A DNA stretch of 40,690 nt from an uncultured Lachnospiraceae bacterium (lineage in GTDB: Bacteria; Bacillota; Clostridia; Lachnospirales; Lachnospiraceae), in contig CANQHZ010000030.1 in assembly GCA_947623805.1 (NCBI GenBank), positions 1 through 40,690 on the forward strand, written 5' to 3'. This document shows, piece after piece, positions 2,573 through 28,109 of this stretch. The translations under genes were made by a program, and so were the position numbers. Below the pieces are notes generated by a model that was not told the origin of the DNA, made no database searches, and was given only the letters and a program-made list of their open reading frames with translations. Positions within the stretch are counted from its first letter, which is position 1. Each line of letters begins with the position of its first letter.

Positions 2573-2587
2573 TTTTGAGGATAGTAT

Positions 2588-3079
2588 ATGAAGATAAAGG
2601 CATTGGCTATGGATGTGGACGGTACTCTTACAGACGGTGGGATTTACATAGGCAGAAACGGTGAAATTATGAAAAGGTTCTGCGTGAAAGATGGGTACGC
2701 TATAAACAATATGCTGCCGCAGATGGGCATAATTCCGATTATTATTACGGGAAGAAAATCAGAAATCGTACAGGCTCGTAGCTCGGAGCTGGGTATTACC
2801 CGGATTATTCAGGGGAGTTCTGACAAACCTGCAGATTTAAAAAATATGCTTTTAAAAGAGGATATTTTACTGGAGGAAACGGCGTATATCGGAGATGACA
2901 TGAATGATTATGAGTGTATGTTGATGGTTGGATTAAGAGGGTGTCCGAAGGATGCGGACAAGAAGATAAAAGCAATAGCGGACTATGTATCAGAATGTGA
3001 AGGCGGAAAAGGCGCATTGCGTGATTTTGTTGAATGGCTTTGGGAAAGGGGAGAGAGCATACGGACATGGCAAAAGTAG
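2588..3079 (+). CDS. KdsC-type HAD phosphatase
   Basis: This 163-residue protein has the size and motifs of the tetrameric KdsC family (3-deoxy-ulosonate phosphate phosphatases): DVDGTLTDG at residues 9-17 with the nucleophile D9 and acid/base D11, the threonine/serine motif IIITGRKS, a conserved lysine region near SSDKP, and GDDMND as motif 4. KdsC removes the phosphate from KDO-8-P; relatives act on nonulosonate 9-phosphates. Next to an aldolase and a CMP-ulosonate synthetase it most likely dephosphorylates the aldolase product before activation. There is no cap domain, as in KdsC. The stop codon overlaps the next gene by 13 bases, which suggests translational coupling. Confidence 0.88.
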   Translation: MKIKALAMDVDGTLTDGGIYIGRNGEIMKRFCVKDGYAINNMLPQMGIIPIIITGRKSEIVQARSSELGITRIIQGSSDKPADLKNMLLKEDILLEETAYIGDDMNDYECMLMVGLRGCPKDADKKIKAIADYVSECEGGKGALRDFVEWLWERGESIRTWQK

Positions 3080-3894
3080 TATGTTTTGGAGCCGCGGGTG
3101 GCGGAAGAAGACTGTATAAAGAAATTTCAGAAAAATATAATGTAGTGGCATTTATTGATAATAATGAGGAAAAATGGGGGACTGAACTGTTTGGAATTGA
3201 AGTATTCTCTCCGAGTGTGCTGAATGAGTTAGAGTATGACTGGATAATCATAACATCGGCACCAGGTCTTGCATCAATATATGAGCAGTGTGTGCAGATG
3301 GGCATATCAGAAGCTAAGATTATAACGACTTATGTGGAAGCTCCACTTGAAAGCAGAAGGATATTTCTGAAAAGTATTGCAGGGATGCCCGAGTTCAAAA
3401 TGCTCCCAGGGGAATGTGCGGAGGCGGGTGTATTTGAAGGTGACTTTGCAAAGTATATCAATGAATATTTTTCTGATCGCATTTTGCATCTTTTTGATAC
3501 ATTTGAGGGATTTGACGAAAGAGATATTGAAAAAGAGAAAGGGCTATCGGAAGCAAAAGCTGGGGAATACGGGAATACTTCCGAAGAGAAGGTGCTGAAA
3601 AAAATGCCATTTCCTCAGAAGGTTGTGCTGCATAAAGGGTATTTTCCGCAGACCGCAGAAGGTATGGAGAATAAGTTCTGCTTTGTAAATTTAGACCTTG
3701 ATTTATATGAGCCTACATATCAGGGATTATTGTTTTTCAGTAGTAAGATGGTTAGTGGAGGAGTTATTCTGGTTCATGATTATTTTGCAGAAAACTTTAA
3801 GGGACCAAGAGAGGCTGTAGATAAATTTGTTAATGAACACAATATACAGGGGGGGGGTATAAGATATATAAATTGCCAATTGGTGATGGGGTGA
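3067..3894 (+). CDS. Rossmann-module + TylF/MycF-type O-methyltransferase, C-terminus shifted at a G9 tract
   Basis: Residues 1-90 are the shared Rossmann-like module: CFGAAGGGRR loop, AFIDNNEEKWG, then a V-x-x-P strand and GISEAKII. Residues 100-270 are a TylF/MycF-related methyltransferase: LFDTFEGF, FVNLDLDLYEPT and GGVILVHDYF are family signatures (metal and sugar-binding acidic residues, base histidine). I chose the ATG at 3067 rather than the longer frame from 3034, because the G-rich site at about 3048-3055 and the module start fit it. The reading frame ends after a G9 tract as IRYINCQLVMG. In the next frame the same DNA reads YKIYKLPIGDGVSVLLAGF and stops at 3915-3917. The PIGDGxS ending is what I expect of this family. 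The present frame therefore looks like a shifted, possibly inactive, version. With 7 or 10 G the normal end would be restored. Confidence 0.82.
   Translation: MAKVVCFGAAGGGRRLYKEISEKYNVVAFIDNNEEKWGTELFGIEVFSPSVLNELEYDWIIITSAPGLASIYEQCVQMGISEAKIITTYVEAPLESRRIFLKSIAGMPEFKMLPGECAEAGVFEGDFAKYINEYFSDRILHLFDTFEGFDERDIEKEKGLSEAKAGEYGNTSEEKVLKKMPFPQKVVLHKGYFPQTAEGMENKFCFVNLDLDLYEPTYQGLLFFSSKMVSGGVILVHDYFAENFKGPREAVDKFVNEHNIQGGGIRYINCQLVMG
3849..3857 (+). repeat. G9 homopolymer in the TylF-type methyltransferase gene
   Basis: Nine consecutive G followed by TATAAG, 37 bases before the stop of the current frame. The change of frame across the tract exchanges an unfamiliar ending for a family-like one. 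This marks it as a candidate phase-variation site or a base-count error. Confidence 0.85.
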
Positions 3895-3942
3895 GTGTCT
3901 TACTGGCTGGATTTTGACTAAAGAATGTAATAAGAGGTGATT

Positions 3943-5085
3943 ATGAAATCTAGGGTTGCTATTTTTTCATTTTATGATAAAGAAGGAATTGTAGATGATT
4001 ATGTTATTTACTTATTAGATGAGCTTTTAACTGTTACTGACAGACTGATTGTTATGGTGAATGGGTTTGTAGATAAAGAAAATATGCATAAGTTGCAAAA
4101 AAAGACTAAAGAAGTAATTGTTAGAGAAAATGCAGGATATGATGCGGGTGCCTATAAAGATGCAATCACAAATGTTATTGGAAGAAATTTACTTGCGCAG
4201 TGTGATGAGCTTATTCTCTGCAATGATACATTTTATGGACCTTTTCTTCCATTAAAAACAATATGGGAAAAGATGGAAAGAAAAAAATGTGATTTTTGGG
4301 GGATGAATTATCTGGATTGTGAGCTGCTTCCACATATAGATAGTTATTTTATGGTGTTTAAGCAGTCAGTATTGAAAACAGGTTTTTTATATGACTACTT
4401 TTGTAATATGATAGATTCTAAAGCAAATGATTTAGATGAAATTATTGCACTGTTTGAGGCGGGATTGACAATATATCTTTTGGACAAAGGATTTAAGCCG
4501 GCGGCATATGCAGAAAAAAATAGGTTGAGTGTTTATGAATGCAGCTATCTGCTCATGACAGAGTATAATTTTCCAATCATTAAGAAGAAGTGTTTTTCAC
4601 CGCGATTTAATGTGCAGTTAGGCTGTATGAAACAAGCTGTAGAATATGTAGAGAAAAATACGTGTTATAATATAGAGCTGATATTAAAAAATGCGTGGCG
4701 TATTTATGGAATTACAATAGATGATATAAACAGGCAATATAAAGGAACGAATCAATACAGGGAATATCAGTGCACTGCAGACTTAACAAGAAGAGAACTT
4801 AGAAAGTTTGTTACAGAAGAAAAGGAAATATATATTTATGGGACAGGTTTTTGGGGAAAAAGAATTTTTCATTTGTATTTATGTGGAAGGAAAAATTTTA
4901 AGGGATTTGTTGTGTCTGATAACATAGAAGAAACAAGAAGTGTTCTGTATGGTTATCCTGTCAGTAAAATATCAGAAATATGCAAGAAAAGTTTGCTTAT
5001 TATAGCTATGACCAGAGAAAACACAAATGAGGCAGAAGCAAATACGAAAGGATTTGACAAGGTGGTTAAGCTTTGGAAAGATTGA
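3943..5085 (+). CDS. RgpF-type glycosyltransferase with C-terminal Rossmann module (copy 1)
   Basis: Residues 1 to about 240 match the rhamnan synthesis protein F family (PF05045): an IFSFYDKEG start, RENAGYDAGAYKD, ELILCNDTFYGPF, CDFWGMN and the SYFMVFK strand. RgpF proteins extend rhamnose-containing wall polysaccharides in streptococci; the donor and acceptor here are unknown. Residues 294-378 form the module, starting IYIYGTGFWGKR. In this subtype the acidic site reads GFVVSDN instead of FIDNN. A GTG two codons upstream (3937) overlaps the AGAGGTG ribosome site, so the ATG is the better start. It is the first of two tandem RgpF copies; a second pair lies at 10639-12897. The base composition is clearly more AT-rich than later genes of the locus. 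Confidence 0.85.
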   Translation: MKSRVAIFSFYDKEGIVDDYVIYLLDELLTVTDRLIVMVNGFVDKENMHKLQKKTKEVIVRENAGYDAGAYKDAITNVIGRNLLAQCDELILCNDTFYGPFLPLKTIWEKMERKKCDFWGMNYLDCELLPHIDSYFMVFKQSVLKTGFLYDYFCNMIDSKANDLDEIIALFEAGLTIYLLDKGFKPAAYAEKNRLSVYECSYLLMTEYNFPIIKKKCFSPRFNVQLGCMKQAVEYVEKNTCYNIELILKNAWRIYGITIDDINRQYKGTNQYREYQCTADLTRRELRKFVTEEKEIYIYGTGFWGKRIFHLYLCGRKNFKGFVVSDNIEETRSVLYGYPVSKISEICKKSLLIIAMTRENTNEAEANTKGFDKVVKLWKD

Positions 5086-6194
5086 TTATATTCTGCTTTT
5101 ACAATCCAAGTGGCAGGCTGACAAGGGATGTGGAATACCTGCTTTCATCCTTAAAACAGTGTGCTAAATATATTGTAATAGTAGTTAACGGAGAAATGGA
5201 TGAATGCGAAAAATTAGAGAGTTATTCGGATTATATTATTTTTCGTGAAAATAAAGGATATGATGCGGGTGCCTATAAATGTGCATTGCGGGATCAGTAT
5301 GTTCATAAATGGCTCAATGAATGTGATGAATTGATATTGTGCAATGATACCTTTTATGGGCCATTTGTTTCTTTTCAGGAGATATTTGAAGAAATGGCAA
5401 GCCAAAATGCGGATTTCTGGGGATTGAATCTGTCTGATAATGGCCTGATAACTTTTATCCAATCTTACTTTCTTGTTTTTAAAATCAAAATATGGAAAAA
5501 GGGAGATTTACAGGAATTTTTTGAAAAGGCTATTGACGAAAATACGCAGGATTTTAAATCTGTACTATATACATTCGAGCAGGGAATATATAAGTTCCTG
5601 ACAAACAGAGGGTATAGGTCAGGAGCGTTAAAACAGCAAAGATATCATATATTATCGTCTGTAGATGGCAATATTTGTTACGATCAGTTACCTTTGCTTA
5701 AAAAGAAAGTGTTTACTGACAAATTTTATGATAAGAAGAAAATTTTAAATTCACTTGCTTATATTGCACAACATTATGACTATGATATCAATTTGATTCT
5801 GGAGGACATAAAAGATAAATATTGCATCGATATAAACTTTGATGAAATAAAAAATCATTTGATAGAAGTACATAAAGAGCCTATAGAAATAGCGAAAGTA
5901 AAAAAAGCGGATTTGATAAATTTTTCTGAAAAGAATAAAAAAGTTTATATATACGGGACAGGGGCTTATGGAAAATTGGTCTATCAAATAGTGGAAAGAA
6001 AATTTATAAAAGGTTTTATTGTTTCGGACGAAAAAATGACGGAAGATAAAAATTTTTTTGATATACCAATTTATAAGATTTCAGATTTGGCTATATGCAG
6101 GGATTTGCCGATTATCGTTGCCTTAAATAAAAGTAATAGTGAAGAAGTGGTTGAAAAATTAGAAGACTTTAAAAATGTCTTGTATCTTTTCTGA
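5073..6194 (+). CDS. RgpF-type glycosyltransferase with C-terminal Rossmann module (copy 2)
   Basis: The 373-residue protein repeats the layout of the preceding gene: a FCFYNPSGRL start, RENKGYDAGAYKC, ELILCNDTFYGPF, ADFWGLN and QSYFLVFK in the RgpF-like part, then the module from about residue 289 (VYIYGTGAYGKL, GFIVSDE). The start is a TTG inside the end of the previous gene, 13 bases before its stop. An AAGGTGG stretch lies about 9 bases upstream, so the two genes are translationally coupled. The conserved GYDAGAYK and NDTFYGPF motifs suggest both copies are active but add different sugars or make different linkages. It is followed by a 411-base gap that seems to hold decayed coding sequence. 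Confidence 0.85.
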   Translation: MERLIIFCFYNPSGRLTRDVEYLLSSLKQCAKYIVIVVNGEMDECEKLESYSDYIIFRENKGYDAGAYKCALRDQYVHKWLNECDELILCNDTFYGPFVSFQEIFEEMASQNADFWGLNLSDNGLITFIQSYFLVFKIKIWKKGDLQEFFEKAIDENTQDFKSVLYTFEQGIYKFLTNRGYRSGALKQQRYHILSSVDGNICYDQLPLLKKKVFTDKFYDKKKILNSLAYIAQHYDYDINLILEDIKDKYCIDINFDEIKNHLIEVHKEPIEIAKVKKADLINFSEKNKKVYIYGTGAYGKLVYQIVERKFIKGFIVSDEKMTEDKNFFDIPIYKISDLAICRDLPIIVALNKSNSEEVVEKLEDFKNVLYLF

Positions 6195-6605: not shown

Positions 6606-7859
6606 ATGGATATAAAAATGAAAAATCGTATATATATATGGGGAATAGGAAAAGGATACAAAATGCTTAAAAGCGCCTTGTATTTTGATTGCATAGAAAT
6701 GGTGGGTTTTTTGGATAACGATGAAAAATTATGGGGGACGGAACAGGAAAACAGCATTGTTTATGCACCGTATAACTTGCTCATGGAGATAGACTACATA
6801 CTTATTTCAACGATAAACTATATTGATCAGATAAAAAATCAGTTATTAACTTTGGGAGTGAGTGAAAATAAAATTATAGCATATTTTGACGCATATGATT
6901 GCATTATTAATGAAGTTAATTTTATTAATTATACTGTCAGAATAATGCAGTTAATGGAAAGAAAATTTCAAAATGTATTTTATAAAATGTCCAATATGGA
7001 ATATGAAATAGCGGATAAAGTTAGAAAAGGTTGTTATCAGTTTCCAATTATTGAGCCTGCTGAGAACGCTTTAAATGAAATCATAGAAAAATCAAAGTCA
7101 ATGTGCCGGTTTGGCGATGGGGAATTTGAGGTATTGTTTCAAAGACCAAGATCAACGTTTCAAAAGATAGATAGTACATTGGCAATTAGATTGAAAGAGG
7201 TGCTTGTAAATAAAGAATCTTGTATTTTAACTTGTATTGCGAATAATTATGGCGACTTGAGTTGCTATACGGAAGAAGCAGCGTTGTCGATTAGAGCATA
7301 TATGTCACAATCAATACGAGAGAGCCATATGAGTGTTATAGATATGAGCAAAACATATTATGATGCATATGTGACTAGGGTGTATATGATGTATCGAAAT
7401 AAAGAACATGCTGTGCATATTTTTGAATTATGGAAAAGAATATGGCACAATAGAGATATAGTTATGATAGAGGGAAGATATACAAAAAACGGTTATGATA
7501 ATGATCTGTTTGCTAATGCGGCAAGTGTGAAAAGAGTTTTGTGTCCGACTCAAAATGCATGGAATAAATATCGTGAAATTTATGACTGGATTATTTCTAA
7601 TGTGTCAAAAGAAAAATTGATACTGATAACGCTGGGACAGACAGCGACGGTATTGGCATTTGACTTGGCAATGATGGGTTACCAGGCTATAGATATGGGA
7701 CAGCTTGATAATGAATACGAGTGGTATAAACGGGGAGCAACGAAAAAAATACCGTTGAGTAATAAGTATGTGCATGAAGCTGGAAAAATAGGACAAATAA
7801 ATAGTGATGTTTATGATCCTCTTTTTGAGAAACAGGTGATCGTCAGAATCGGTTGTTAG
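6606..7859 (+). CDS. Rossmann module + GT-D type glycosyltransferase (DUF1792-like)
   Basis: Residues 6-95 are the shared module (IYIWGIGKGYK, MVGFLDNDEKLWG, a strand ending LISTINY, and LTLGVSENKII). Residues about 150-410 match the GT-D fold family (PF08759, formerly DUF1792), found in the serine-rich adhesin glycosylation system of streptococci. The sequence CRFGDGEFE places the DGE nucleotide-sugar/metal motif at D171-G172-E173; LITLGQTATVLAFDLA and YQAIDMGQLDNEYEW are further family-like segments. The open frame extends upstream to a GTG at 6495, but that part looks like unrelated gap sequence. The ATG at 6606 lies close to the module; the ATG at 6618 is equally possible. No strong ribosome site is visible. 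The previous gene ends 411 bases upstream. Confidence 0.8.
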   Translation: MDIKMKNRIYIWGIGKGYKMLKSALYFDCIEMVGFLDNDEKLWGTEQENSIVYAPYNLLMEIDYILISTINYIDQIKNQLLTLGVSENKIIAYFDAYDCIINEVNFINYTVRIMQLMERKFQNVFYKMSNMEYEIADKVRKGCYQFPIIEPAENALNEIIEKSKSMCRFGDGEFEVLFQRPRSTFQKIDSTLAIRLKEVLVNKESCILTCIANNYGDLSCYTEEAALSIRAYMSQSIRESHMSVIDMSKTYYDAYVTRVYMMYRNKEHAVHIFELWKRIWHNRDIVMIEGRYTKNGYDNDLFANAASVKRVLCPTQNAWNKYREIYDWIISNVSKEKLILITLGQTATVLAFDLAMMGYQAIDMGQLDNEYEWYKRGATKKIPLSNKYVHEAGKIGQINSDVYDPLFEKQVIVRIGC

Positions 7860-7874
7860 CAGGTGATATAGAAA

Positions 7875-9116
7875 GTGGTCTGTATCGCTGAGATAGTGTG
7901 TAATGGCAAAACTTTGCAGGAGGCAGTTATGATTTTATCGGAGTGTGGACAGGAATTTGAAGCATATGCAGCAGAAATTACGGATAAATGGACAGGTCAG
8001 ATATTTATCTTTGGTGCAGGGATTGTAGGAAAGCAATTAAAGAAAGAAATATATGCGTATTCTACAGATATTGGAGTAAAGTTTATTGATAATGATGCGA
8101 AGAAAATAGGAACAGTATATGAAGGCGCAGAAGTTATTTCTATGGCAGAGTACTTTCAATTAAATGGAGAGGACAGAGGAATTATTGTGATTGCGGCTTC
8201 GCGTGCTAATATTGGAATTATTGAAGAACAGCTTAGAGGATATGATTTAAGACACAGAGAGAATTATTTTATTTATGATGAATTTAAAAATGAAATTTTT
8301 CCAATTATATCACTGTACTGCTATGATAAATCATATGTATCATTGGCTCAGATTTCACTCACAGAACGTTGTACGTTAAGATGCAAAAAATGTGCTCATG
8401 CGTGCTATGCGGTGGACATTGCTTCGGAGGATATGCCACTTGAAGAAGCATATAGAAGTGCGGATTATTTCTTTTCTAAAGTGGATTTTATAAGTGAATT
8501 CGTTCTGATAGGTGGGGAGCCGCTGTTGTATAGGGAACTAAGTAAAATTGTTGCCTATATAGGGGGAAAATATAGGAAGCAGATAGGATTATTTACGATT
8601 ACTACAAATGGAACAATTGTTCCGCCAGAAGAAGTTATGGAGGAATGTTCAAAAGCGGATGTGATGTTTCGAATATCTAATTACTCTAAAGCGATGCCAA
8701 AATTAAAAACTTCATATGAAAAATTAATAAAACGTTTATCGGAGTACAATATTCCTTATATACTTGGGAGAACGGATAATGAATGGATGGATTATGGATT
8801 TGAGTATGTGGATCGCAAAGCAACACAGGCAGAGTTGATTGAAGTGTTTGATCAATGTAGAACGCCTTGTAGAGAGATTCGGGGGAACAAGTTTTACTAT
8901 TGTGTGATGGCACGCACGGTTTCAGATAATTTGCAATACAATGTCGGGGTAGATGACTATTTGGATTTTGATCGTTTGCAAGGTAAAAATTATAAAAAGG
9001 AACTGTTAAAATTTAATTTGGGATACTCAGAAAAGGGATATCTGGATATGTGTAACTTTTGCCATGGGGCAGAGAGTGTTCATTATCCAATTTCAGTGGC
9101 GGAACAATTAAAATAG
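7875..9116 (+). CDS. Rossmann module + radical SAM enzyme with extra C-terminal cysteines
   Basis: Residues 40-135 are the module (IFIFGAGIVGKQ, VKFIDNDAKKIG, IIVIAASRANIG). Residues about 155-400 are a radical SAM domain: CTLRCKKC places the 4Fe-4S ligands at C166, C170 and C173, followed by LIGGEPLL (the GGE motif that holds SAM) and TITTNGT. Near the C-terminus, CRTPC, YYC and CNFCHG give further cysteines that could bind an auxiliary cluster, as in SPASM/twitch enzymes. The reaction is unknown; in a glycan locus, radical dehydrogenation, epimerisation or deoxygenation of a sugar is plausible. The start is GTG at 7875 with an AGGTGATA site 8 bases upstream. It lies 15 bases after the GT-D gene. 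Confidence 0.82.
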   Translation: MVCIAEIVCNGKTLQEAVMILSECGQEFEAYAAEITDKWTGQIFIFGAGIVGKQLKKEIYAYSTDIGVKFIDNDAKKIGTVYEGAEVISMAEYFQLNGEDRGIIVIAASRANIGIIEEQLRGYDLRHRENYFIYDEFKNEIFPIISLYCYDKSYVSLAQISLTERCTLRCKKCAHACYAVDIASEDMPLEEAYRSADYFFSKVDFISEFVLIGGEPLLYRELSKIVAYIGGKYRKQIGLFTITTNGTIVPPEEVMEECSKADVMFRISNYSKAMPKLKTSYEKLIKRLSEYNIPYILGRTDNEWMDYGFEYVDRKATQAELIEVFDQCRTPCREIRGNKFYYCVMARTVSDNLQYNVGVDDYLDFDRLQGKNYKKELLKFNLGYSEKGYLDMCNFCHGAESVHYPISVAEQLK

Positions 9117-9146
9117 ATTTATGTTGATAGGGAGGAAATATAATCA

Positions 9147-11754: not shown

Positions 11755-11784
11755 ACAAAAAACGGGTTTACGAGGAGAAATGAT

Positions 11785-16682: not shown

Positions 16683-17978
16683 ATGAAACAAATAGCGATA
16701 GTGATATGCAATTATAACGGCGGTATGGACACAGTGCACTGCATAGAGGCGGTCATGAAAAATACATGGAAAGACATTGATATATATGTAGTGGACAATG
16801 CATCTGAGGATAACTCAGTCGCTCTTATAGAGAATTCCTTTGGAGACAAAGTGACTATCTTACATAATGAGGAGAATCTTGGCGGTTCAGGCGGATTTGG
16901 CAGAGGCATGAGGCATGCAGTGGATCAGGGATACGAATACGTGATGCTTCTCGATAATGATGCTTTTATTGATACAGACACTATTGAAAAATTATATGTT
17001 TATATACGCGCTCATAAAGAGATTGGTATCGTAGGCGCTAAAATTATGACCCTGAATGACAGGGAACGTATTTTTGATTTCGCTAAGATGATGCAATGGG
17101 ACAAGTTCTATGACGGTTCCGAGTGGTACGGCAGAATGGACTCTCCTGAAACACAGAAGCCGTTTGAGTGCGATTATGTGGCGGCAACGACAGCGATAGC
17201 GAGACGGGAGGCAATCATTGCTTCCGGCGGGATGGATGAAGCCCATTTTATTTATTACGATGATATAGAAATGTGCCAACGAATCCGCATGAGCGGATAT
17301 AAAGTTGTGTGTCTTGGAACTGCTAAGGCATGGCATCGGAGCAGTCTGTCCCAGAGAAGAACCAACACGTTTGCAGAGTATTATATGACACGCAATCGAT
17401 ACCGTTTTTATGGCAAGTATCTTCCGGAAGAGAGATTAGAAGAGTTCGCAGACTATATTATTGCTCAGGCGTTCCCGTATATGTATGGATCTCATTACAT
17501 GGGCAGGGAAGACGTCTATTTGTCCAATAAGTATATTATTGAGGATTTCATGAACGATGTCCGCGGCAAAGCCAGACCAGGAAGAATACAGACGATAAAA
17601 AGCAATTATAAGGAAAACATTGCAAAGCTGATCAGAGGAAAAAAGAAGATAGGATATTATATAAAAGAGACAGGGAGCGAGGGAACGGCCAGACGGTTTG
17701 TACATCTGGTTGAAGAAATAGACCCTGAGGTTGCTATTGAAAACATAAGTAAAGAAGATGCGGCAGCATATGACATGGTGGTTTGCTTTTGTGGGCATGT
17801 AAAGGATGAATCTGAAAACATTCTGCCGGCAGTTTATATTGATATGCATAATAATATTGTGGATGACTGGAATGCCTATCTTTATTTCCAAAACTATGAT
17901 AATGCGTATAGTTTCTTTAGTCATATTTATAAGCCGGCTATTCTGGAAGGAATAGCAAGAATACGGGAAAAAGTATAA
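16683..17978 (+). CDS. GT2 family glycosyltransferase with an unusual C-terminal domain
   Basis: Residues 2 to about 250 are a GT2 domain of the rhamnosyltransferase/galactofuranosyltransferase type: IAIVICNYNGG, IYVVDNASEDNS, ENLGGSGGFGRGM, VMLLDNDAFI with the metal-binding DND, and FIYYDDIEMCQRI followed by WHRSS. Residues about 320-431 form a separate domain (KIGYYIKETGSEGTARRF, DMVVCFCGH, AVYIDMHNN) that I do not recognise; it lacks the GxGxxG loop of the module. This is the only gene between 3067 and 28109 without the module. The start is the ATG at 16683 with AGAGGAG upstream; a longer frame from 16662 lacks a ribosome site. Confidence 0.83.
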   Translation: MKQIAIVICNYNGGMDTVHCIEAVMKNTWKDIDIYVVDNASEDNSVALIENSFGDKVTILHNEENLGGSGGFGRGMRHAVDQGYEYVMLLDNDAFIDTDTIEKLYVYIRAHKEIGIVGAKIMTLNDRERIFDFAKMMQWDKFYDGSEWYGRMDSPETQKPFECDYVAATTAIARREAIIASGGMDEAHFIYYDDIEMCQRIRMSGYKVVCLGTAKAWHRSSLSQRRTNTFAEYYMTRNRYRFYGKYLPEERLEEFADYIIAQAFPYMYGSHYMGREDVYLSNKYIIEDFMNDVRGKARPGRIQTIKSNYKENIAKLIRGKKKIGYYIKETGSEGTARRFVHLVEEIDPEVAIENISKEDAAAYDMVVCFCGHVKDESENILPAVYIDMHNNIVDDWNAYLYFQNYDNAYSFFSHIYKPAILEGIARIREKV

Positions 17979-18005
17979 TGTTGAGAGTCATTGAGGGAGA
18001 GCAGA

Positions 18006-20294: not shown

Positions 20295-21661
20295 ATATGT
20301 GCAGTGTATTTGAAATTTTACCGGATTATTTCATAGATAATGAGGCGGAACGATGGGGGCAGGAACACTGTGGAATAGAGATTGTATCTTTGGAAAAAGC
20401 CTGCAGTTATGATGACATCACTGTATATATAACGTGCAAGGATTCGGAGTCGGTAAAGCAGCAATTGTTAACAGCAGGAGTGGAAGATAAAAGGATATGG
20501 TATGGAAGGGACTGGCTGAACATTTTTCTATGGGTATGCCATCTTTCCGCAGAGGACTGGGGAGTTGTGTTGAACGACAGAATGTCTGATAATAAAGAGA
20601 AGAGTATCGTTTTTGATCTTTTTAACGGGCTGGTTCTGGGCGGTGTCGAGACGTGGAGCCTGCGAATGGCAGAAAAGCTTCAGATGCGTGGCCACAGGGT
20701 AAAAGTGCTTACCAACGATGTGCAAGAACATTCGGTAGATCCACGTGACATACCGATTATTGAACTTTCATATGCGAGCGCCGGATCCGAAAGGGAAAAA
20801 ATGGCAATGTGCGTTCAGGCTATTCGGGAGTGCGGACCTTGTACGATTGTAGGGAATTTTCCGGAGCGGGCATTTGGGGCGGCGTGTATAGCTAAAAAAA
20901 CATACCCTGAAATGATTAGGCTTGTGGCAGTGATTCATAATGATGAACAGATTTATTACGATATGTATGCAGGCATGGCAGATTTGCTCGATGCTTGCAT
21001 TGTTATCAGTTCAAGAATGCGGGTGAATTTGTGCAGGAAAGGCTTTCCTGTGGAAAAAATACATATGTTACAGTGGGAGATTCCTATAAAAAGTTTGTTT
21101 GCGCACACATACTCGAGACAAACTGAAACCTTAAGATTAGGATATGCCGGACGGGTAGTTGTCTGGCAAAAAAGAATGGATTTAATGCTGCAGGCTGCAC
21201 AGAAACTAAAACAAATGGGATGTGATTTTAAGTTGGAGATTGCAGGTGCGGGGGACTATGAGGAGGAAATGAAGCTTCAGATACAGCAGATGGATTTGCA
21301 GGATTGTGTTGTCATGCTTGGCTATATAGACCGTGACAAGATTGCTGATTTCTGGCAGAGACAGGACATCATGTTAAGCTGTTCCGATTATGAGGGACAC
21401 AGCATTTCACAGGCGGAAGCGATGGCGGAGGGAGCAGTACCAATTATTACAGATGTCTCAGGAGCGAGAGACGATGTGACAGATGGAGAGAATGGTTATG
21501 TAGTACCTGTTGGTGCGATAGATACATTGGTGAGCAGAATTGCATATTTGTATCATGATCGCGATATGCTTGCCCAATTAGGCAAAAATGCATATGAGAC
21601 AATAAAAAGTCGTAAAGACAGTGCTGAGCAGTTTGAATGCATTATTAAGGCTATTGCGTGA
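20246..21661 (+). CDS. Rossmann module + GT4 family glycosyltransferase (second copy)
   Basis: Residues 1-95 are the module (YKFFFGAGRVGKQ, DYFIDNEAERWG, VYITCKDSESV, LLTAGVEDKRI). Residues about 115-465 are a GT4 glycosyltransferase: LVLGGVETWSLRMAEKL is the N-terminal loop, LGYAGRVVVWQKRMD opens the donor domain, and DYEGHSISQAEAMAEG holds E383 and E391 of the E-x7-E motif. Three start codons lie in phase (TTG 20231, ATG 20240, ATG 20246). The GGGAGGA at about 20233-20239 fits the last one. It therefore starts inside the end of the HAD gene. The layout equals that of the GT4 gene at 13915, with the module on the same side. Confidence 0.87.
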   Translation: MYKFFFGAGRVGKQILDMCSVFEILPDYFIDNEAERWGQEHCGIEIVSLEKACSYDDITVYITCKDSESVKQQLLTAGVEDKRIWYGRDWLNIFLWVCHLSAEDWGVVLNDRMSDNKEKSIVFDLFNGLVLGGVETWSLRMAEKLQMRGHRVKVLTNDVQEHSVDPRDIPIIELSYASAGSEREKMAMCVQAIRECGPCTIVGNFPERAFGAACIAKKTYPEMIRLVAVIHNDEQIYYDMYAGMADLLDACIVISSRMRVNLCRKGFPVEKIHMLQWEIPIKSLFAHTYSRQTETLRLGYAGRVVVWQKRMDLMLQAAQKLKQMGCDFKLEIAGAGDYEEEMKLQIQQMDLQDCVVMLGYIDRDKIADFWQRQDIMLSCSDYEGHSISQAEAMAEGAVPIITDVSGARDDVTDGENGYVVPVGAIDTLVSRIAYLYHDRDMLAQLGKNAYETIKSRKDSAEQFECIIKAIA

Positions 21662-21683
21662 GAGCTAACCAAAGGAGGATATG

Positions 21684-23246
21684 ATGGAACAGGTCAATAG
21701 GCAGACTTGGCTGGAGTTTGAGGAACAGGCAGAGGAAAAGCAGGTAATTCTGTTTGGAGCAGGGAATTATGCAAGAAAATATTTTCAAAAGTACTGTGGA
21801 AAGCTGAGGCTTGCTGGTGTGATTGACAATAATCCGCAGAAACAAGGACTTAGACTGGCTCAATGTTTTATGGAAGTATATGCACCGCCGGAATCGGATC
21901 TGTCGATTTCTTCGGTCAGCATATTGGAGCGGTACAGCGATGATAATGTGATAGTTCTGATTGCTAGCAAAAATCATTACGAGGATATGCTTGCTCAGGT
22001 TCATGAATATGGCATCACAAACTGTTATGTGATAGTCCGTATGGAGGAAAATGAGAAGCAGGAGGCGGAGAAAATGCCGATTCTAGAACCAGAGCAACAA
22101 AAGAGGCAGTTTGTTGCGGAATGCTGCAAGAGGTATGACATTTCTCCGAAGAAAGTATTTTTCTATACATATGGAAAATATACGGAACATGGGAAATATA
22201 TTACAGAAGCGCTGTTAAAAATCAGAAGTGACTTGGAAATTGTATGGATGCTTTCAGACCTGACGACAGATGTACCAGATGGAGTACGCAAGGTGTATGC
22301 GGGGAACTGGAGGCAGCATATTTATGAAATGGAGACAGCCCGAGTTTGGATACTTAGTTTGGCAGTACCAGATTTTATAGAGAAGAGGAACGGGCAAGTT
22401 TATATTCAGACTAAGCATTGGGCGAGCATAACATTAAAAAAATTTTATCTGGATGCTGTCAAATCTTTTGCAAGTGTGCCGGAAAAACTGGAAAATTGGG
22501 AGCGTGATGGTCGGCTTATGGATTATGTAATTACAGGCAGTGAGTTTGACACAGCTTCCTGTCGAAGTGGTTTTGGCTTTAAAGGAGAGGCACTGCAATT
22601 CGGTTCTCCACGTTCCGATGCATTATTTCATGAGGTAGAGAACAGAAAAAAAGTATATGATTATTATCATATAAAAAAAGATATCAAGACATTGTTATAT
22701 GCGCCGACATATCGGTTTGACAAGAAAAAGGGTAACAGCTTTCATGCGGCCAGACTAATCGAACTGGATTTTGCCAGAGTTAAGAGGGCTTTGGAAAAGA
22801 GATTCGGAGGAGAATGGTATATTTTGTTCAGACTGCATCCTTCTGTAGCGGATGCTTTTCGTGACGTGGAAAGACCGGATTATGTAGTAAATGTAAGTGA
22901 GTACGAGGACAGTGAAGAACTGGTTGCGGCAGGAGATATTACTATTTCTGATTTTTCCAGTATTATGTTTGAACATGCTTTTGTCAAAAAGCCAGTCTTT
23001 TTGTTTGCAACGGATAGGCGAGAATATTTGCAGAATGAATATGAGCTTCTGCTTGACTATGATTCTCTGCCGTTTCCGATTGCGGAATCCAACGATGAAT
23101 TGGTCCGTAAAATCGAAGAATTTGACTGTCAAAAGTATGAGTGCGCTGTTACAGATTTCCTTGAGCGGTATGGGATCCATGAAGATGGACATGCAAGTGA
23201 CCGGTCGGCGGCATTTATATCAAATCTGATTGGTGGTGACAGATAA
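21684..23246 (+). CDS. Rossmann module + TagF/TagB-like CDP-glycerol glycerophosphotransferase
   Basis: Residues about 18-115 are the module (VILFGAGNYARKY, AGVIDNNPQKQG, VIVLIASKNHYED, YGITNCYVI). Residues about 160-515 match the teichoic acid glycerol/ribitol phosphotransferase family (PF04464): FGSPRSDALF with G307-D312, FRLHPSV with H385, and ISDFSSIMFEHAFVKKPVF followed by TDRREYL. These are the conserved donor-binding segments of TagF/TagB. The enzyme should move polyol phosphate from a CDP-polyol onto the growing glycan at the membrane. The gene at 24635 ends in a TagD-like cytidylyltransferase and probably supplies the donor. AAAGGAGG ends 2 bases before the ATG at 21681 and 5 before the ATG at 21684, so I chose the latter. 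Confidence 0.87.
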   Translation: MEQVNRQTWLEFEEQAEEKQVILFGAGNYARKYFQKYCGKLRLAGVIDNNPQKQGLRLAQCFMEVYAPPESDLSISSVSILERYSDDNVIVLIASKNHYEDMLAQVHEYGITNCYVIVRMEENEKQEAEKMPILEPEQQKRQFVAECCKRYDISPKKVFFYTYGKYTEHGKYITEALLKIRSDLEIVWMLSDLTTDVPDGVRKVYAGNWRQHIYEMETARVWILSLAVPDFIEKRNGQVYIQTKHWASITLKKFYLDAVKSFASVPEKLENWERDGRLMDYVITGSEFDTASCRSGFGFKGEALQFGSPRSDALFHEVENRKKVYDYYHIKKDIKTLLYAPTYRFDKKKGNSFHAARLIELDFARVKRALEKRFGGEWYILFRLHPSVADAFRDVERPDYVVNVSEYEDSEELVAAGDITISDFSSIMFEHAFVKKPVFLFATDRREYLQNEYELLLDYDSLPFPIAESNDELVRKIEEFDCQKYECAVTDFLERYGIHEDGHASDRSAAFISNLIGGDR

Positions 23247-23265
23247 ATCGGTAAGGAGAGGGAGT

Positions 23266-24603
23266 ATGACAAAGATAACGGTAATCATGCCGTCGTTAAA
23301 TGTGGTGAAATATATAAGACACTGTATGGAAAGTGTACTGTCACAGACGTTGAAAGAGATGGAGATTCTATGTATCGATGCGGGTTCCACGGACGGAACA
23401 TTGGAGTTATTGGAGCAATATGCGGAAAGCGATGGCAGGATTAAAGTGATTCATTCTGACAGGCGCAGCTATGGCTATCAGTTGAACTTGGGAATCGGTA
23501 TGGCTTCAGGCGAATATGTAGCGGTGGTGGAAACCGATGACATGATCACGCCGGAGATGTTCGAGACTTTGTATGAAGAAGCAGTAAAGGCAGATGCGGA
23601 TTATGTTAAAGGCTCTGCGGAACTTTTCATGGAAGTTTCTAAAGATATATGCCTAAAAATACCTGCGGTACCGGTATTTCAGGATCGCAGTATGTATCAT
23701 AGGCTTTTGTGTCCGAAAGAAATGCCGGAATTGGTAGTATGCGATTACTATTTGTGGACCGGTATTTATAAAAATGAATTGGTAAAGCAGATTATCCTGA
23801 ACGAGACACCAGGAGCTGCCTATCAGGATGCGGGATTTATGTTTCAGGCGTATGCGAAAGCGGAGCGGGCAGTATATCTCCCAGATGCTTTCTATCTGTA
23901 CCGACAAGATAATATGGAAGCTTCTTCATATGACAAGCGTGCGTTCAGATATTTTGTACAGGAGTATGACTATATGAAACAGTTCCTGTCAGGTTTGTCA
24001 AAGGATTGGTATGAAGCGTATTATACACGAATGCTCAATCACTGCAGACGCAGATTTCAGGTTATGGGGGCAACTGGTAAATTCTGGCAGGATGTTTCAG
24101 ACGATATGGAAGAATTGCGGAGAAGACTGCAATACGCAGTAGATCAGAATATAATTAAAAAAGAACATTTGGATGATGACCAGCGCATCAGATTAAAATT
24201 GTTTTTGGACGGACCACAGGCTGTTTATGGAAGTTATGCGGCGGCTTATTTCTGGGCGGTAGAAAATATATGTGTGATGTGGGAGACGATCAAAGATAAG
24301 AATACAATTATCTTCGGCAGCGGTAAGGCAGGCAAATTTCTTCATGCGCTTATCGCGCACAAATATGAAGGGAATGTGCAATGCTATTGTGATAATCAGG
24401 AAAGATTGTGGGGAGTCGTGCAAGGTATTCCGGTGATTTCGCCTGAAGAAGCGGTGAAACGGTATCCGGAAGCCATATACCTGATTCCAAGTGTAAGATT
24501 TGAGACGGAGATGCGTGCTCAATTAACGCGTCTTGGCATTGCGGAAAAGAATATTTTTACTTATAACGCAGGGACAAGCGATTTGCTGGTATTTCAAATG
24601 TAG
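23266..24603 (+). CDS. GT2 family glycosyltransferase with C-terminal Rossmann module (second copy)
   Basis: Residues 1 to about 230 are a GT2 domain: KITVIMPSLNVV, ILCIDAGSTDGT, SYGYQLNLGI and VETDDMI (DxD-like). Residues 345-437 are the module (TIIFGSGKAGKFL, QCYCDNQERLWG, LTRLGIAEKNIF). It is a paralogue of the gene at 15345 with the same order of parts. A longer frame begins at 23230, inside the end of the previous gene, but AAGGAGAGGGAG directly precedes the ATG at 23266. Two such similar enzymes suggest that the repeat unit contains the same sugar, or the same acceptor context, twice. Confidence 0.87.
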   Translation: MTKITVIMPSLNVVKYIRHCMESVLSQTLKEMEILCIDAGSTDGTLELLEQYAESDGRIKVIHSDRRSYGYQLNLGIGMASGEYVAVVETDDMITPEMFETLYEEAVKADADYVKGSAELFMEVSKDICLKIPAVPVFQDRSMYHRLLCPKEMPELVVCDYYLWTGIYKNELVKQIILNETPGAAYQDAGFMFQAYAKAERAVYLPDAFYLYRQDNMEASSYDKRAFRYFVQEYDYMKQFLSGLSKDWYEAYYTRMLNHCRRRFQVMGATGKFWQDVSDDMEELRRRLQYAVDQNIIKKEHLDDDQRIRLKLFLDGPQAVYGSYAAAYFWAVENICVMWETIKDKNTIIFGSGKAGKFLHALIAHKYEGNVQCYCDNQERLWGVVQGIPVISPEEAVKRYPEAIYLIPSVRFETEMRAQLTRLGIAEKNIFTYNAGTSDLLVFQM

Positions 24604-24634
24604 TATATATAATGCGCGGCAGAGGAGAATTTTT

Positions 24635-26776
24635 ATGACAGGAGAAGAATTGGAGCGAGAATTACCCAAAGCGATACTGGGGTGGTATTCGTTTAGGAAG
24701 AATACAAGCAAGTTTATAATTGACAAGAATAATATCGATTGTATAGAGAGTATATCAGGTGACTGGGACTATATCGTTGTGACCGATGCCATTGAAACTA
24801 GGGATAATCCCTGCACTGTCTTGAAAATTTTGCGGACACACCTGAAACCCAACGGGAAGTTATTTTTGATGATGAATAATCGGTTAGGAATAAGATATTT
24901 CTGTGGGGACAGGGACAAGTATTCAGGCACAGTGTCAGACTGTCTGGAAGATTATAAAAATATAGCTGCTTCGAAGATGAACGGACGTATGTATGATAAA
25001 ACACAGATTAAAAGAATCATAGAAAATTCAGGTATAAAATACTATCATTTTTTTTCTGTGTATCCGAATTTTGAGAATCCAGCACGTATTTTTTCAGAAA
25101 ATTACATTCCGAATGAGGATGTAACAAACAGGATTTATCCATCCTACAATTTTCCAGAATCCGTATACATAGAAGAAAAAACAATGTACCAGCAACTGAT
25201 AGATAATGGAATGTTTCACCAAATGGCGAATGCCTTTCTGATAGAGTGTCCGGCTGACGGAAAATTCTGTGAAGTACTGCACGTGACCTCATCCCTTGAT
25301 AGGGGACGTGATGACGCATTATATACGATTATATACAAGGATATGGTTGAAAAAAGAGCGGCTTATCCGGAAGGGAAGAAAAAACTTGTGGATATTGCTG
25401 TAAATATGAATGAACTCGCAGCAAACAATATAAGCGTAGTAAAAGGCGTTCTCTCGGATGACACTTATAGATTGCCGTTTGTCAATGGAAAGACTTCACA
25501 GATATATTTAGAAGAACTTCTCAGAAAAGATGTAGACGAATTTGTGAAGGAGATGGATCATTTTAGGGACGTTATTTTACGATCATCCGATATAGTCTCA
25601 GAAGATAAGGGTGATGGAGAAGGGGCTATACTAAAACACGGATTTGTAGATTTGGTTCCGCTCAATTCTTTCCATATAAATGACGATTATGTTTTTTTCG
25701 ACCAGGAGTTTTGTGTGGATAATTTCCCTGCAAATGCGTTGCTCTGGAGAATGCTGACAACTTATTATACGGCTGATGTCAGGGCAGATAAGATATATCC
25801 TAAAGATAAGCTGGTTGAGAGATACAACCTAAAGAAATGTTTGGATAAGTGGAGGGGTATTGATAATGAATTTTTGACATCTCTGCGTCAGGAAAGGATT
25901 TTGAAAGACTATCACAGGAGAGTGCGTACTTCGATAGGCAATATATTGAATAACCGTCGTTGCATGAATGAGTCGGCTGGACATTATGTATTCAGGCACT
26001 ATGACATCTTTGCGGGAATAGAGGGAAGAAAATTAATCCTTTTCGGCTCAGGAAAATTTGCTGAGAAATTCAAGGAACAATATGGCAGAGATTTTCCAAT
26101 CTATGCAATGCTGGACAATGATCAGTCAAAGGCGGGCACAAGAGTAGACGGGGTGCGCGTAGAAACGCCAGATTACTTAAAAACACTCGTTGCAGGCAGC
26201 TTCAAGGTAGTCATATGCATTAGGGCATATGAAGAAGTATGCAGGCAGCTAGAAAGCATGGGGATTTATGATTACAGCATATACAATCCAGGGAGATATT
26301 ATCAGACGAGACCGCGGGCTACAATAGAAATTATAAATGATACAGATGAGCGGATTACAGATAAGCAGCATAACATTGGTTACGTGGCAGGCGGTTTCGA
26401 TATGTTTCATATCGGGCATCTCAATCTGATTCGCAGAGCGAAAGAGAAGTGCAATTACCTGATTGTCGGAGTAATGTCTGACGAGAGGATGTACAATATT
26501 AAGCAGAAGTATCCTATTATTCCGTGCAATGAAAGGATGCAGATTGTGGCGGGATGCCGTTATGTGGATAGGGTGGAGGAGCTGCCAGCTGACAGAGCGG
26601 GCATCAGGGACGCCTATCATATGTTCCATTTTGACTGTATGTTTTCCGGCGATGATCATAAGGACAGCAAGGACTGGCTGGCGGCAAGAGATTATTTGAG
26701 ACAACAAGGCGCAGATATCGAATTCCTGCCGTACACAAAAGAGCAAAGTTCCACAGAAATTAGAAAGAAATTATAA
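24635..26776 (+). CDS. Three-part fusion: methyltransferase/kinase-like region, Rossmann module, TagD-like cytidylyltransferase
   Basis: Residues 1 to about 200 resemble the second half of a class I methyltransferase (LRTHLKPNGKLFLMMNNRLG, RYFCGDR); the SAM-binding start is weak. Residues about 230-450 have a kinase-like pattern: D339-x4-N344 in DLVPLN, then FFDQEF with D356, similar to the catalytic loop and metal site of aminoglycoside/choline-kinase-type folds, though the usual histidine is missing. Residues 467-560 are the module (LILFGSGKFAEKF, AMLDNDQSKAG). Residues 570-713 are a nucleotidyltransferase of the glycerol-3-phosphate cytidylyltransferase type: GGFDMFHIGHL with HIGH at 592-595, a K near 610, and TKEQSSTEIR at the end. 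The likely product is a CDP-alcohol for the TagF-like enzyme. The ATG at 24635 follows AGAGGAG; a longer frame from 24533 lies in the previous gene. Confidence 0.8.
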   Translation: MTGEELERELPKAILGWYSFRKNTSKFIIDKNNIDCIESISGDWDYIVVTDAIETRDNPCTVLKILRTHLKPNGKLFLMMNNRLGIRYFCGDRDKYSGTVSDCLEDYKNIAASKMNGRMYDKTQIKRIIENSGIKYYHFFSVYPNFENPARIFSENYIPNEDVTNRIYPSYNFPESVYIEEKTMYQQLIDNGMFHQMANAFLIECPADGKFCEVLHVTSSLDRGRDDALYTIIYKDMVEKRAAYPEGKKKLVDIAVNMNELAANNISVVKGVLSDDTYRLPFVNGKTSQIYLEELLRKDVDEFVKEMDHFRDVILRSSDIVSEDKGDGEGAILKHGFVDLVPLNSFHINDDYVFFDQEFCVDNFPANALLWRMLTTYYTADVRADKIYPKDKLVERYNLKKCLDKWRGIDNEFLTSLRQERILKDYHRRVRTSIGNILNNRRCMNESAGHYVFRHYDIFAGIEGRKLILFGSGKFAEKFKEQYGRDFPIYAMLDNDQSKAGTRVDGVRVETPDYLKTLVAGSFKVVICIRAYEEVCRQLESMGIYDYSIYNPGRYYQTRPRATIEIINDTDERITDKQHNIGYVAGGFDMFHIGHLNLIRRAKEKCNYLIVGVMSDERMYNIKQKYPIIPCNERMQIVAGCRYVDRVEELPADRAGIRDAYHMFHFDCMFSGDDHKDSKDWLAARDYLRQQGADIEFLPYTKEQSSTEIRKKL

Positions 26777-26789
26777 TGGGAGATGGCAT

Positions 26790-28109
26790 ATGAATGTAGT
26801 TTGTCATAATATGATGGTAAATCAGGAAAGACCTGAACATGGAGTCAGGGACTTGAAAAAGGCTGGTTTTGAAAGCCTTGCGGTCGGCATAGGTGTCTGG
26901 TATCCGGATTTCTACGGCTGGCATAAGGATAAGCCAATAAAACCGAGACAAATAGATTTAAAGCCAGTGTCTGAGCGTTATGAGGAGATCTTTACGGTAT
27001 GCCGGGAAAACGGGGTAAATATTAATTTTGCATATGGTCCGTCATATGGAATGCCGGATCCTTATAAACATAGAGGCATTCGGGAAAATTTCAGAAAAGA
27101 GGATGGCTCCGCCGATGAGGCGGCAATAAAGGCTGTTGAAGCGGAGCAGGCCACCTTTGTTGAAAAAGCCGCGAAAGAGTGCATTGAGTTCTGCAGTGCA
27201 AACGGAGTGCATTATATACTCATACCGCCTGTTACAGGAGACAGAACATTAGGAAGAGAATGGGAAATCAACCGTAATTTCTATATGAATCTTGCGAAAA
27301 AAGCCAAGGAATGCGACATATGCATTCTATTGCAGAATATGTACCAAGATATGAAAGGACATCTGGTGCGTGGCGTCTGCTCAAATCCGTCAATAGCGAC
27401 TGAGTGGGTAGACCGATTGAATGAGGAGGCTGGAGCGGAAGTTTTTGGCTTTTGTCTGGATGTTGGAGTGTGCAGTATCTGTGGCAATGATATTCATGAA
27501 TTTGTGGTAACGATGGGCAGAAGAATTAAGGCGGTAATTCTGAGAGATTGTGATGGAAAACATGATTACGCGCTTATGCCTTTTAGTTGTGTGTATCGGG
27601 ATGGAGTTCAGACAGACTGGATGGGATTGATCAGAGGCTTACGGGATGTTGATTTTGATGGGGAACTAATTGTTAACTGTTGGAACACAGTTCATGCGGT
27701 TTCACAGCTCCTGCGCCCCACTTTATTCAGGTTTGCCAAGGAAGTGGGAGATTACATCCGCTGGCAGATTCAGCTGGAACAGAATCTGAAAAAATATAAA
27801 TCAATCGTCCTGTTCGGGGCAGGCAATATGTGCAGGAATTATATGAAATGCTACGGAGATAAATACCCTCCTCTTTTTACCTGCGACAACAACCCTAAAC
27901 TCTGGAACACAGAGTTTGAGGGACTTATGGTGAAAAATCCAGAGGAATTAAAGAATCTTCCCGATGACTGCGGCGTCTATATCTGCAATATTTACTACCG
28001 CGAGATTGAAACACAACTTAAGGAAATGGGAATCAAAAATATAGAGTATTTTAACGATGAATATATGCCGACATTTTATTTTGACAGGCTGGAGCGTGAC
28101 GAAGAATAG
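26790..28109 (+). CDS. Xylose-isomerase-like TIM barrel (probable pseudoenzyme) with C-terminal Rossmann module
   Basis: Residues 1 to about 325 align with the sugar phosphate isomerase/epimerase gene that follows, but the expected metal and catalytic positions are replaced. ENLYT is QNMYQ here, FDTGHA is LDVGVC, HIHDND is ILRDCD, DLHQIPF is DYALMPF, and SFETA is VNCWN. A normal isomerase reaction is therefore unlikely; sugar binding or a partner role for the intact paralogue is possible. Residues 338-425 are the module (IVLFGAGNMCRNY, FTCDNNPKLWN, VYICNIYYREI, LKEMGIKNI). The gene starts 14 bases after the fusion gene with a GGGAGA site. Family placement is sure; loss of activity is inferred from the substitutions. 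Confidence 0.8.
   Translation: MNVVCHNMMVNQERPEHGVRDLKKAGFESLAVGIGVWYPDFYGWHKDKPIKPRQIDLKPVSERYEEIFTVCRENGVNINFAYGPSYGMPDPYKHRGIRENFRKEDGSADEAAIKAVEAEQATFVEKAAKECIEFCSANGVHYILIPPVTGDRTLGREWEINRNFYMNLAKKAKECDICILLQNMYQDMKGHLVRGVCSNPSIATEWVDRLNEEAGAEVFGFCLDVGVCSICGNDIHEFVVTMGRRIKAVILRDCDGKHDYALMPFSCVYRDGVQTDWMGLIRGLRDVDFDGELIVNCWNTVHAVSQLLRPTLFRFAKEVGDYIRWQIQLEQNLKKYKSIVLFGAGNMCRNYMKCYGDKYPPLFTCDNNPKLWNTEFEGLMVKNPEELKNLPDDCGVYICNIYYREIETQLKEMGIKNIEYFNDEYMPTFYFDRLERDEE

Follow-up and report, generated by a model that had tools for sequence, protein, structure and literature searches.

Accessory Rossmann-type domains are known on PglD and on sugar C-methyltransferases. In acetyltransferases of the NeuD/VioB type the N-terminal domain holds the nucleoside diphosphate sugar (NDP-sugar), and in C-methyltransferases it is held by the C-terminal domain. 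The ACT domain is a small domain shared by numerous unrelated enzymes within a single area of metabolism, the amino-acid pathways. An accessory domain of the Rossmann kind is already known on WbaP and PglF, and the WbaP study reports that it belongs to the dimer interface and supplies most of its contacts, is stabilised by uridine mono-, di- and triphosphate (UMP, UDP and UTP) and is destabilised by UDP-galactose (UDP-Gal); full-length WbaP is inhibited by UMP with an apparent half-maximal inhibitory concentration (IC50) of 4.1 uM, and its authors suggest feedback on transferases and dehydratases alike (PMC10942596). For a related enzyme, modelling in a second study proposes that a partner protein promotes a dimer with these domains in contact (PMC12802240). 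Here we describe a homologous Rossmann half-domain of ~90 residues, hereafter the module, that is common to 17 of 18 consecutive proteins in a 40,690-nucleotide stretch of DNA from an uncultured Lachnospiraceae bacterium (contig CANQHZ010000030.1, hereafter the window). In some gut bacteria it is present on nearly all enzymes of a surface-sugar cluster, irrespective of the reaction catalysed, and it may act as a pathway-wide sensor.

The module in the window proteins and its fold

A sequence-only reading of the window had claimed that 17 of 18 consecutive glycan proteins share one segment, that only the GT2 at 16683 lacks it, and that the catalytic partners are unrelated. All 18 reading frames are open at the starts it gave, and each of these claims was borne out. 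Leave-one-out profiles, built from 16 modules each, recovered every one of the 17 omitted modules, with scores of 15.2-62.2 bits, compared with a top score of 8.6-10.1 bits for a control set of 3600 shuffled window proteins. The weakest modules are those of the WbsX protein at 9147 (independent E-value 0.005) and the HAD protein at 18006 (2e-4). The consensus of the 17 aligned segments is IFGxGxxG - FxDND - G - GxxV - QL..G, with one glycine invariant, and the Pfam and TIGR assignments of the window proteins fall in unrelated families. The features are listed below by position and strand, with leave-one-out scores in bits.

3067..3339, +: module 1, N-terminal in a TylF-type methyltransferase (3067-3894; PF05711); 57.5 bits
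4804..5082, +: module 2, C-terminal in an RgpF-like protein (3943-5085; PF05045); 29.6 bits
5919..6191, +: module 3, C-terminal in an RgpF-like protein (5073-6194; PF05045); 47.4 bits
6606..6896, +: module 4, N-terminal in a GT-D glycosyltransferase (6606-7859; PF08759); 46.2 bits
7977..8285, +: module 5, in the N-terminal part of a radical SAM protein (7875-9116; PF04055); 43.3 bits
10335..10631, +: module 6, C-terminal in a WbsX-type protein (9147-10646; PF14307); 15.2 bits, the lowest score
11470..11751, +: module 7, C-terminal in an RgpF-like protein (10639-11754; PF05045); 25.9 bits
12619..12894, +: module 8, C-terminal in an RgpF-like protein (11785-12897; PF05045); 25.1 bits
12955..13212, +: module 9, N-terminal in a methyltransferase (12955-13863; PF13489, PF08241); 35.2 bits
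13915..14178, +: module 10, N-terminal in a GT4 (13915-15348; PF00534); 43.2 bits
16368..16646, +: module 11, C-terminal in a GT2 (15345-16649; PF00535); 62.2 bits; the copy folded alone
16683..17978, +: GT2 without module, the sole exception; profile score 1.2-3.8 bits
19962..20246, +: module 12, C-terminal in a HAD-like protein (18006-20294; TIGR01549); 19.4 bits
20246..20515, +: module 13, N-terminal in a GT4 (20246-21661; PF00534); 46.1 bits
21708..22046, +: module 14, N-terminal in a TagF-like transferase (21684-23246; PF04464); 40.6 bits
24289..24570, +: module 15, C-terminal in a GT2 (23266-24603; PF00535); 44.8 bits
26012..26299, +: module 16, internal, preceding the cytidylyltransferase-like C-terminal part of its protein (24635-26776); 45.9 bits
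27786..28064, +: module 17, C-terminal in a probable pseudo-isomerase (26790-28109; PF01261); 59.0 bits
28057..29058, +: isomerase paralogue without module, active-site positions intact (PF01261)

That the GT2 at 16683 conceals a module was rejected on its profile score and on hhalign, which gave a probability of 2.7% for its C-terminus against the 17 modules. Five relatives of this protein align over almost its full length and also have no module, and a sixth matches 312 residues only. Its C-terminal stretch of ~130 residues, to which no family was assigned, is present in the five module-less relatives.

Structures were modelled for one module alone and for one full-length protein. Module 11, folded by AlphaFold2 with an alignment of 110 of 336 diverse modules that also served for family matching (alignment A3), is predicted to be a half-Rossmann domain with a mean predicted local distance difference test (pLDDT) score of 93.6 and a predicted template modelling (pTM) score of 0.83. 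Rather than unrelated folds, there is thus one alignable family with a confidently Rossmann-type member. The best Foldseek match in the PDB was 3nkl (1.9e-5), titled UDP-D-quinovosamine 4-dehydrogenase, followed by Rex (3.6e-5), VioB with TDP-sugar (7.9e-4) and WbaP (3.7e-3), with succinyl-CoA synthetase also among the matches; TMq was 0.69 for both 3nkl_B and WbaP 8t53. The sequence profile found the same relatives in the PDB, namely Rex (8.9e-11), 3nkl (1.2e-10), VioB (4.8e-7) and WbaP chains (~6e-5), and also TrkA. VioB and 3nkl are matched by fold and by profile alike.

Family models covered the module sparsely. At 1e-3, TIGR03570 (NeuD) matched 43 of the 110 modules and single Rex models up to nine; the Pfam families included C2185-like_N (PF22674; 14 modules), PglD_N (PF17836; six, best 1.5e-5) and CoA_binding (four), and the seven that matched cover at most 31 of the 110. 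The window copy stays under the family cut-offs, with 22.2 bits for PF17836 (23.4 needed) and 27.8 bits for TIGR03570 (160.8 needed), and one full protein from another locus (L061) passes PF17836 at 29.8 bits. The relatives and these sparse matches together point to a large, mostly unnamed family within a known superfamily; judged by profile and model, the module is a separate Rossmann half-domain of the superfamily that includes NeuD/PglD-N, CapD-N, WbaP-DUF and Rex.

The positions that would form a nucleotide site are among the strongest of the family. In 431 non-redundant modules the two glycines of the beta-1 loop are G in 98% and 92%, and the acid position after beta-2 is D in 77%; the remaining strong positions are core or turn residues, as judged by comparison with the strand pattern of the model. 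Both loop glycines are kept in at least 512 of the 562 modules used for the pair statistics below.

Distribution, partners and divergence of the module

Profiles from the window segments were searched in genomes, and the matches cluster in glycan loci. At E up to 10 the genome of origin (3.96 Mb, 229 contigs) gave 47 matches. The window (contig C30) and contig C8 have 17 each and C3 has six; the other seven are scattered and include genes that look by eye Rex-like (C57), CapD-like (C63) and TrkA-like (C134). Each of the 23 congeneric genomes searched had matches at 1e-3 (2-54 each; ten or more in 14), compared with 0-3 per genome in 16 genomes from other families of the order. In one relative of 7.0 Mb (G022), 56 of 57 matches, by manual count, are confined to four stretches, each 16-38 kb long, and one or more of the matches have the length of Rex. 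A scan of 398 genomes of the phylum, with at most 12 candidates scored per genome, found a match at 1e-5 in 144, mostly one or two each, and many of these appear to have the reading-frame lengths of Rex or CapD. Besides the genome of origin, 17 genomes spanning ten families had four or more.

Relatives of the cytidylyltransferase fusion at 24635, a few of them partial or distant, were found in 66 loci. By record titles these are mainly Lachnospiraceae (Acetatifactor, Dorea, Butyrivibrio, Parablautia), with Selenomonadaceae (Anaerovibrio lipolyticus DSM 3074), a Treponema metagenome-assembled genome and others; since the loci were picked through the fusion, counts from them are no random sample. 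An iterated profile identified 599 modules in 590 of 1460 open reading frames (ORFs, called by a simple script) of 90 stretches, in N-terminal, C-terminal or internal position or alone. This set includes known relatives (Rex-like L041, CapD-like L042 and the C-methyltransferase L089), and partner classes were assigned by BLAST to seeds, with 60 of the 599 modules left without class and 17 classed as alone. Four or more module genes are present in 72 stretches; between the outermost module genes of these, 550 of the 720 ORFs that reach 150 amino acids carry the module, a share biased upward because the interval is bounded by module genes themselves. Per locus the share is 17/18 in the window, 16/32 in the C8 locus, 11/11 in L076 and 10/10 in L074, and a single stretch holds at most 20 module genes. 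Modules of the isomerase class (ISO) occur in 49 of the 90 stretches, some of which are cut off, and those of the class labelled CTP in 70; the C3 locus has no ISO module.

The partners belong to ~30 Pfam or TIGR families, some of them mutually related (several methyltransferases, several glycosyltransferases). Beyond those of the window, partners over curated cut-offs are DUF4422, Gly_transf_sug/Caps_synth, Methyltransf_24, GDSL lipase, TOD1_MUCI70, DUF5672, DUF1919, GT11, MptE-like, polysaccharide deacetylase, GT90, sulfatase plus GT2, asparagine synthase, DUF1796, GT92, FkbM methyltransferase, pyruvyl transferase (with radical SAM), WcbI, WavE and hexapeptide proteins. This list is incomplete, as 8 of the 40 non-window proteins scanned matched no named partner domain at 1e-3, or matched none above the cut-off.

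The earlier claim that the partner family fixes the side of fusion holds in the window and for some classes across the 90 stretches, but not for others. Counted by module, the side is always C-terminal in ISO (49/49), RgpF (21/21) and WbsX (14/14), nearly always so in GT2 (146/148), and always N-terminal in TylF (8/8) and GT-D (8/8). It is mostly N-terminal in TagF (18/20, two internal), DUF4422 (14/15) and GT32 (32/39, seven internal). It varies in GT4 (30 N-terminal, 15 C-terminal), methyltransferases (16 and 10), radical SAM proteins (12 and 2, with 2 internal) and HAD proteins (2 and 3, with 2 internal).

Stand-alone modules also exist, with a recurring form of ~158 amino acids that has a glycine-rich N-terminus by eye (L094:2375-2851, L104:5625-6101, L109:4459-4944, and on contig C1 of both G022 and G002). 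This N-terminus is possibly membrane-inserted, and the helix preceding the module resembles, by eye, that of the WbsX protein at 9147 and of a GT2 on C8. The fusion protein at 24635-26776 consists of a weakly methyltransferase-like N-terminal part (PF13489, below cut-off), a middle part without family, the module and a cytidylyltransferase-like domain (PF01467, over cut-off); its first 455 residues had no match in the PDB at 0.1.

Is the module a normal part of its enzymes? The genome of origin has 41 GT2 domains, and a module was found in 7 of the 10 within its three module loci and in none of the 31 elsewhere (Fisher p = 5e-6; places matched by hand). The iterated profile adds an eighth module-bearing GT2, on C3; for the 31 outside the loci the result comes from the first profile alone. 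Among seven TagF domains in this genome, four carry the module (one on C30, two on C8, one on C3) and one each on C3, C51 and C54 do not, by first-profile matches. Class-wide, a search of 196 genomes returned 30 TagF loci, of which 29 were scanned (our own, L149, being omitted) and 25 had a recognised TagF ORF; only 2 of 32 such ORFs carry the module. No association between a module on TagF and nearby module genes was shown in this sample (p = 0.23), and two of its loci have module genes beside a TagF without module. The RgpF family occurs in only 2 of the 196 genomes, our own included. For GT2 and TagF, the idea that the segment is a normal region of the enzyme family was thus rejected, and the copies cluster.

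Pair statistics started from 562 of the 599 modules, after dropping 14 with more than 20 gap columns and the duplicate loci L086, L093 and L095; from these, modules without class and those classed as alone were then omitted. Modules on the same partner class in different loci share a mean identity of 30.6%, carried by ISO (70.8%) and CTP (46.0%), with 36.5% for WbsX, 26.6% for GT4 and 23.2% for GT2. Modules on different classes share 21.8% within a locus (1543 pairs) and 21.7% between loci (101379 pairs). With CTP and ISO omitted there are 367 cases: the nearest module has a partner of the same class in 251 of them (68.5 by chance) and lies in the same locus in 10 (5.9 expected). These figures indicate that modules mostly travel with their enzymes and bear no locus signature. 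Recent duplication or homogenisation inside a locus was rejected, as modules within loci show no excess similarity. Frequent free swapping among related enzymes was rejected likewise, since module identity declines smoothly with partner identity. Fifteen pairs with at least 50% partner identity over at least 180 amino acids have module identity below 28%; in the GT32 group of these (L091/L093 and L092) the module is, by eye, N-terminal in one and internal before a further domain in the other.

The probable pseudo-isomerase and the possible function of the module

The full-length model of the protein at 26790 (mean pLDDT 88.3) matches sugar 3-epimerases. Its paralogue at 28057 has four positions that we take to be metal ligands, as in enzymes of the D-tagatose 3-epimerase type, and the 26790 protein is changed at two of them. 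The 46 module-less paralogues keep the four positions in 46, 46, 45 and 44 cases. Alignment A4 took in 46 of 47 listed isomerase references, a duplicate being omitted. Among 48 module-bearing relatives of 26790, in contrast to the paralogues, the Glu is kept in 29 and the Asp in 39, the His in none (Arg in 39) and the last Glu in two (Asp in 32). As the positions are partly kept the change is partial, and we infer the loss of activity; judged by these residues, 26790 is a probable pseudo-isomerase. The best conserved module class, ISO (module 72.1% identical between pairs, barrel 44.5%), is therefore found on a protein that is probably no enzyme, next to a normal paralogue.

A comparison of the isomerase genes of C30 and C8 shows 39-70% identity per 60 bases before the module (lower where gaps fall) and a jump to 95% at window position 27787, the module start; identity then stays at 78-100% until ~29220, past the downstream paralogue. 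The stretch from 27787 to ~29220, mostly >90% identical to G000 C8 ~54.2-55.6 kb, begins at the module boundary, and this step is probably a recombination edge or the result of gene conversion.

From homology, conserved site and distribution, we tentatively propose, at a probability of roughly 45%, that each module responds to nucleotides and regulates the enzyme on which it sits, much as ACT domains do. Each module would bind a nucleotide or sugar nucleotide of the pathway (UMP, UDP or cytidine monophosphate (CMP) as by-product, an NDP-sugar or NAD(H)) and, by way of dimer state or allostery, would tune its enzyme; flux along the pathway of the locus would then keep pace with precursor supply. 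It would work like an ACT domain or the UMP-responsive domain of WbaP, spread across a whole pathway, and by analogy the WbaP domain is the closest experimental precedent for such a mechanism. The kept loop glycines, the absence of excess likeness within loci and the class-linked modules favour an ACT-like nucleotide-sensing module over a locus-specific docking code. Of the earlier proposal of either a ligand sensor or a docking part, the sensor half thus gains from homology and from the uridine-nucleotide response of WbaP, and locus-specific docking does not. That the whole locus switches or assembles together through a common nucleotide-responsive domain, with the module of the dead isomerase as hub, strikes us as a doubtful extension.

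Several observations weigh against the regulatory proposal. Between pairs with 35-60% partner identity, most classes show faster divergence in the module than in the enzyme (26.0% against 39.8% identity in GT2, 30.4% against 44.8% in TagF, 40.1% against 43.0% in GT4), the exceptions being CTP (52.1% against 47.4%) and ISO. Of the 641 GT2 pairs whose partners are 40-50% identical, 354 fall below 28% in the module, close to the 21.7% background between classes, and GT2 modules of different loci average little above it. A weakly constrained part would show the same fast divergence. The beta-2 acid position is V in 15% of the 431 modules, which may therefore bind a different ligand or none. One GT2, at 16683, manages without a module, and a second nucleotide site on glycosyltransferases, which have a donor site of their own, needs a reason; both the ligand and the regulation are what we infer.

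Alternatively, the modules may pair with one another and hold the enzymes of a locus in a complex, perhaps around the pseudo-isomerase. The superfamily member WbaP dimerises through its domain (PMC10942596), and the same is modelled for another member (PMC12802240). The density of module genes between the outermost copies, the stand-alone modules and the conserved module of the degenerate isomerase also fit such a part. Modules of different enzymes in one locus are, however, no more alike than those of different loci (0.218 against 0.217), the family-wide signal is strongest at the loop glycines, at the beta-2 acid and at residues of the core or of turns, and ISO modules were seen in about half of the stretches, some of these cut off, and are absent from C3. 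The assembly line of enzymes put forward earlier found no positive support, since excess likeness within loci is lacking and modules outside ISO and CTP diverge at least as fast as their enzymes; we regard a complex of this kind as unlikely.

A module that grips the NDP-sugar modified or transferred by its enzyme is less probable still. The nearest named families include NDP-sugar enzymes, one module match is the C-methyltransferase domain PF08484 itself (L089, 3.9e-60), and a module's nearest neighbour mostly has a partner of its own class; the methyltransferase, deacetylase, WcbI and asparagine-synthase partners could act on NDP-sugars. Against this, GT2, GT4, GT32 and TagF enzymes have donor sites of their own, GT2 and TagF also occur without a module, and conservation is highest in the class whose partner is probably a pseudoenzyme.

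We consider it improbable that the domain merely spread by recombination or fusion in variable loci and has no common function. The fast divergence in most classes, the variable side in GT4, methyltransferases, radical SAM and HAD proteins, and the step in the isomerase gene at the module start (65-70% to 95% per 60 bases) are consistent with hitch-hiking, but both loop glycines are kept, module genes cluster, and ISO and CTP modules are strongly conserved. Finally, that the segment is a regular region of every enzyme family can be practically dismissed: proteins with the module do recur across many genomes, but it is missing from all 31 GT2s outside the module loci of the genome of origin and from 30 of 32 class-sample TagF ORFs, a contrast limited to these two families.

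Neighbouring features and comparison with known systems

Upstream of the first module, window positions 305-3079 hold a CMP-sugar synthetase-like gene, an HMGL-type protein (PF00682) and a KdsC-like phosphatase (the first and third named by eye); the C-terminal part of the HMGL-type protein is without family. To judge from these names, the three perhaps form a pathway for an unusual keto-acid sugar. The contig starts with nine G (positions 1-9), perhaps an artefact, and the upstream part of the locus lies outside the contig. At 40276-40518, downstream of a NifS-like gene named by eye, lies a pair of related repeats that share 78% identity over 51 nt at a spacing of 139; each has long inverted arms, of 23 nt at 91% and 25 nt at 100%, with 30-32 nt between the arms.

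Here a single family extends over ~30 enzyme families within common loci, and one genome has as many as 57 profile matches. Literature searches, several of them requiring many terms at once and one missing the WbaP study, found no account of such a module on many enzymes, which is weak support for its absence from print. If the modules do sense nucleotides, they would offer a direct test of how bacteria balance a many-step glycan pathway; at the least, they are a domain hardly covered by Pfam and usable as a locus marker.

The N-terminal domain of NeuD, PglD and VioB (PF17836, TIGR03570) has the same fold, glycine-rich loop and acid after beta-2, but the window copy scores below the cut-offs of these curated families, and the hexapeptide acetyltransferase partner is absent among the 17 window proteins. 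One such partner occurs elsewhere (L057:6304-7224), and that protein may simply be such an acetyltransferase. PF13727, the domain of WbaP and PglF/CapD, shares the fold and is likewise an accessory domain common to unrelated glycan enzymes; there, however, it is found in membrane proteins of two enzyme kinds, whereas the module is on ~30 families, and no sequence match to PF13727 was found among the 110 modules at 1e-3 or among the window proteins. The NAD(H)-sensing domain of Rex is alike in fold and matches nearly the whole length of the module by profile. Rex is a DNA-binding repressor, but its DNA-binding domain is absent from the Pfam matches of the window proteins, and the Rex-like gene of this genome sits apart from the module loci. 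PF08484, the C-terminal domain of NDP-sugar C-methyltransferases, is tied to one enzyme family; the module profile caught one such protein, and 2 of the 110 modules match the family. C2185-like_N is the most frequent Pfam match, with one full protein over its cut-off (L097, 40.0 bits), but accounts for a minority of modules. The fold of the ACT domain differs, and ligand regulation of the module is proposed by analogy, but in its mode of working the ACT domain offers a likeness, as both are found on a wide range of unrelated enzymes that serve a single type of pathway.

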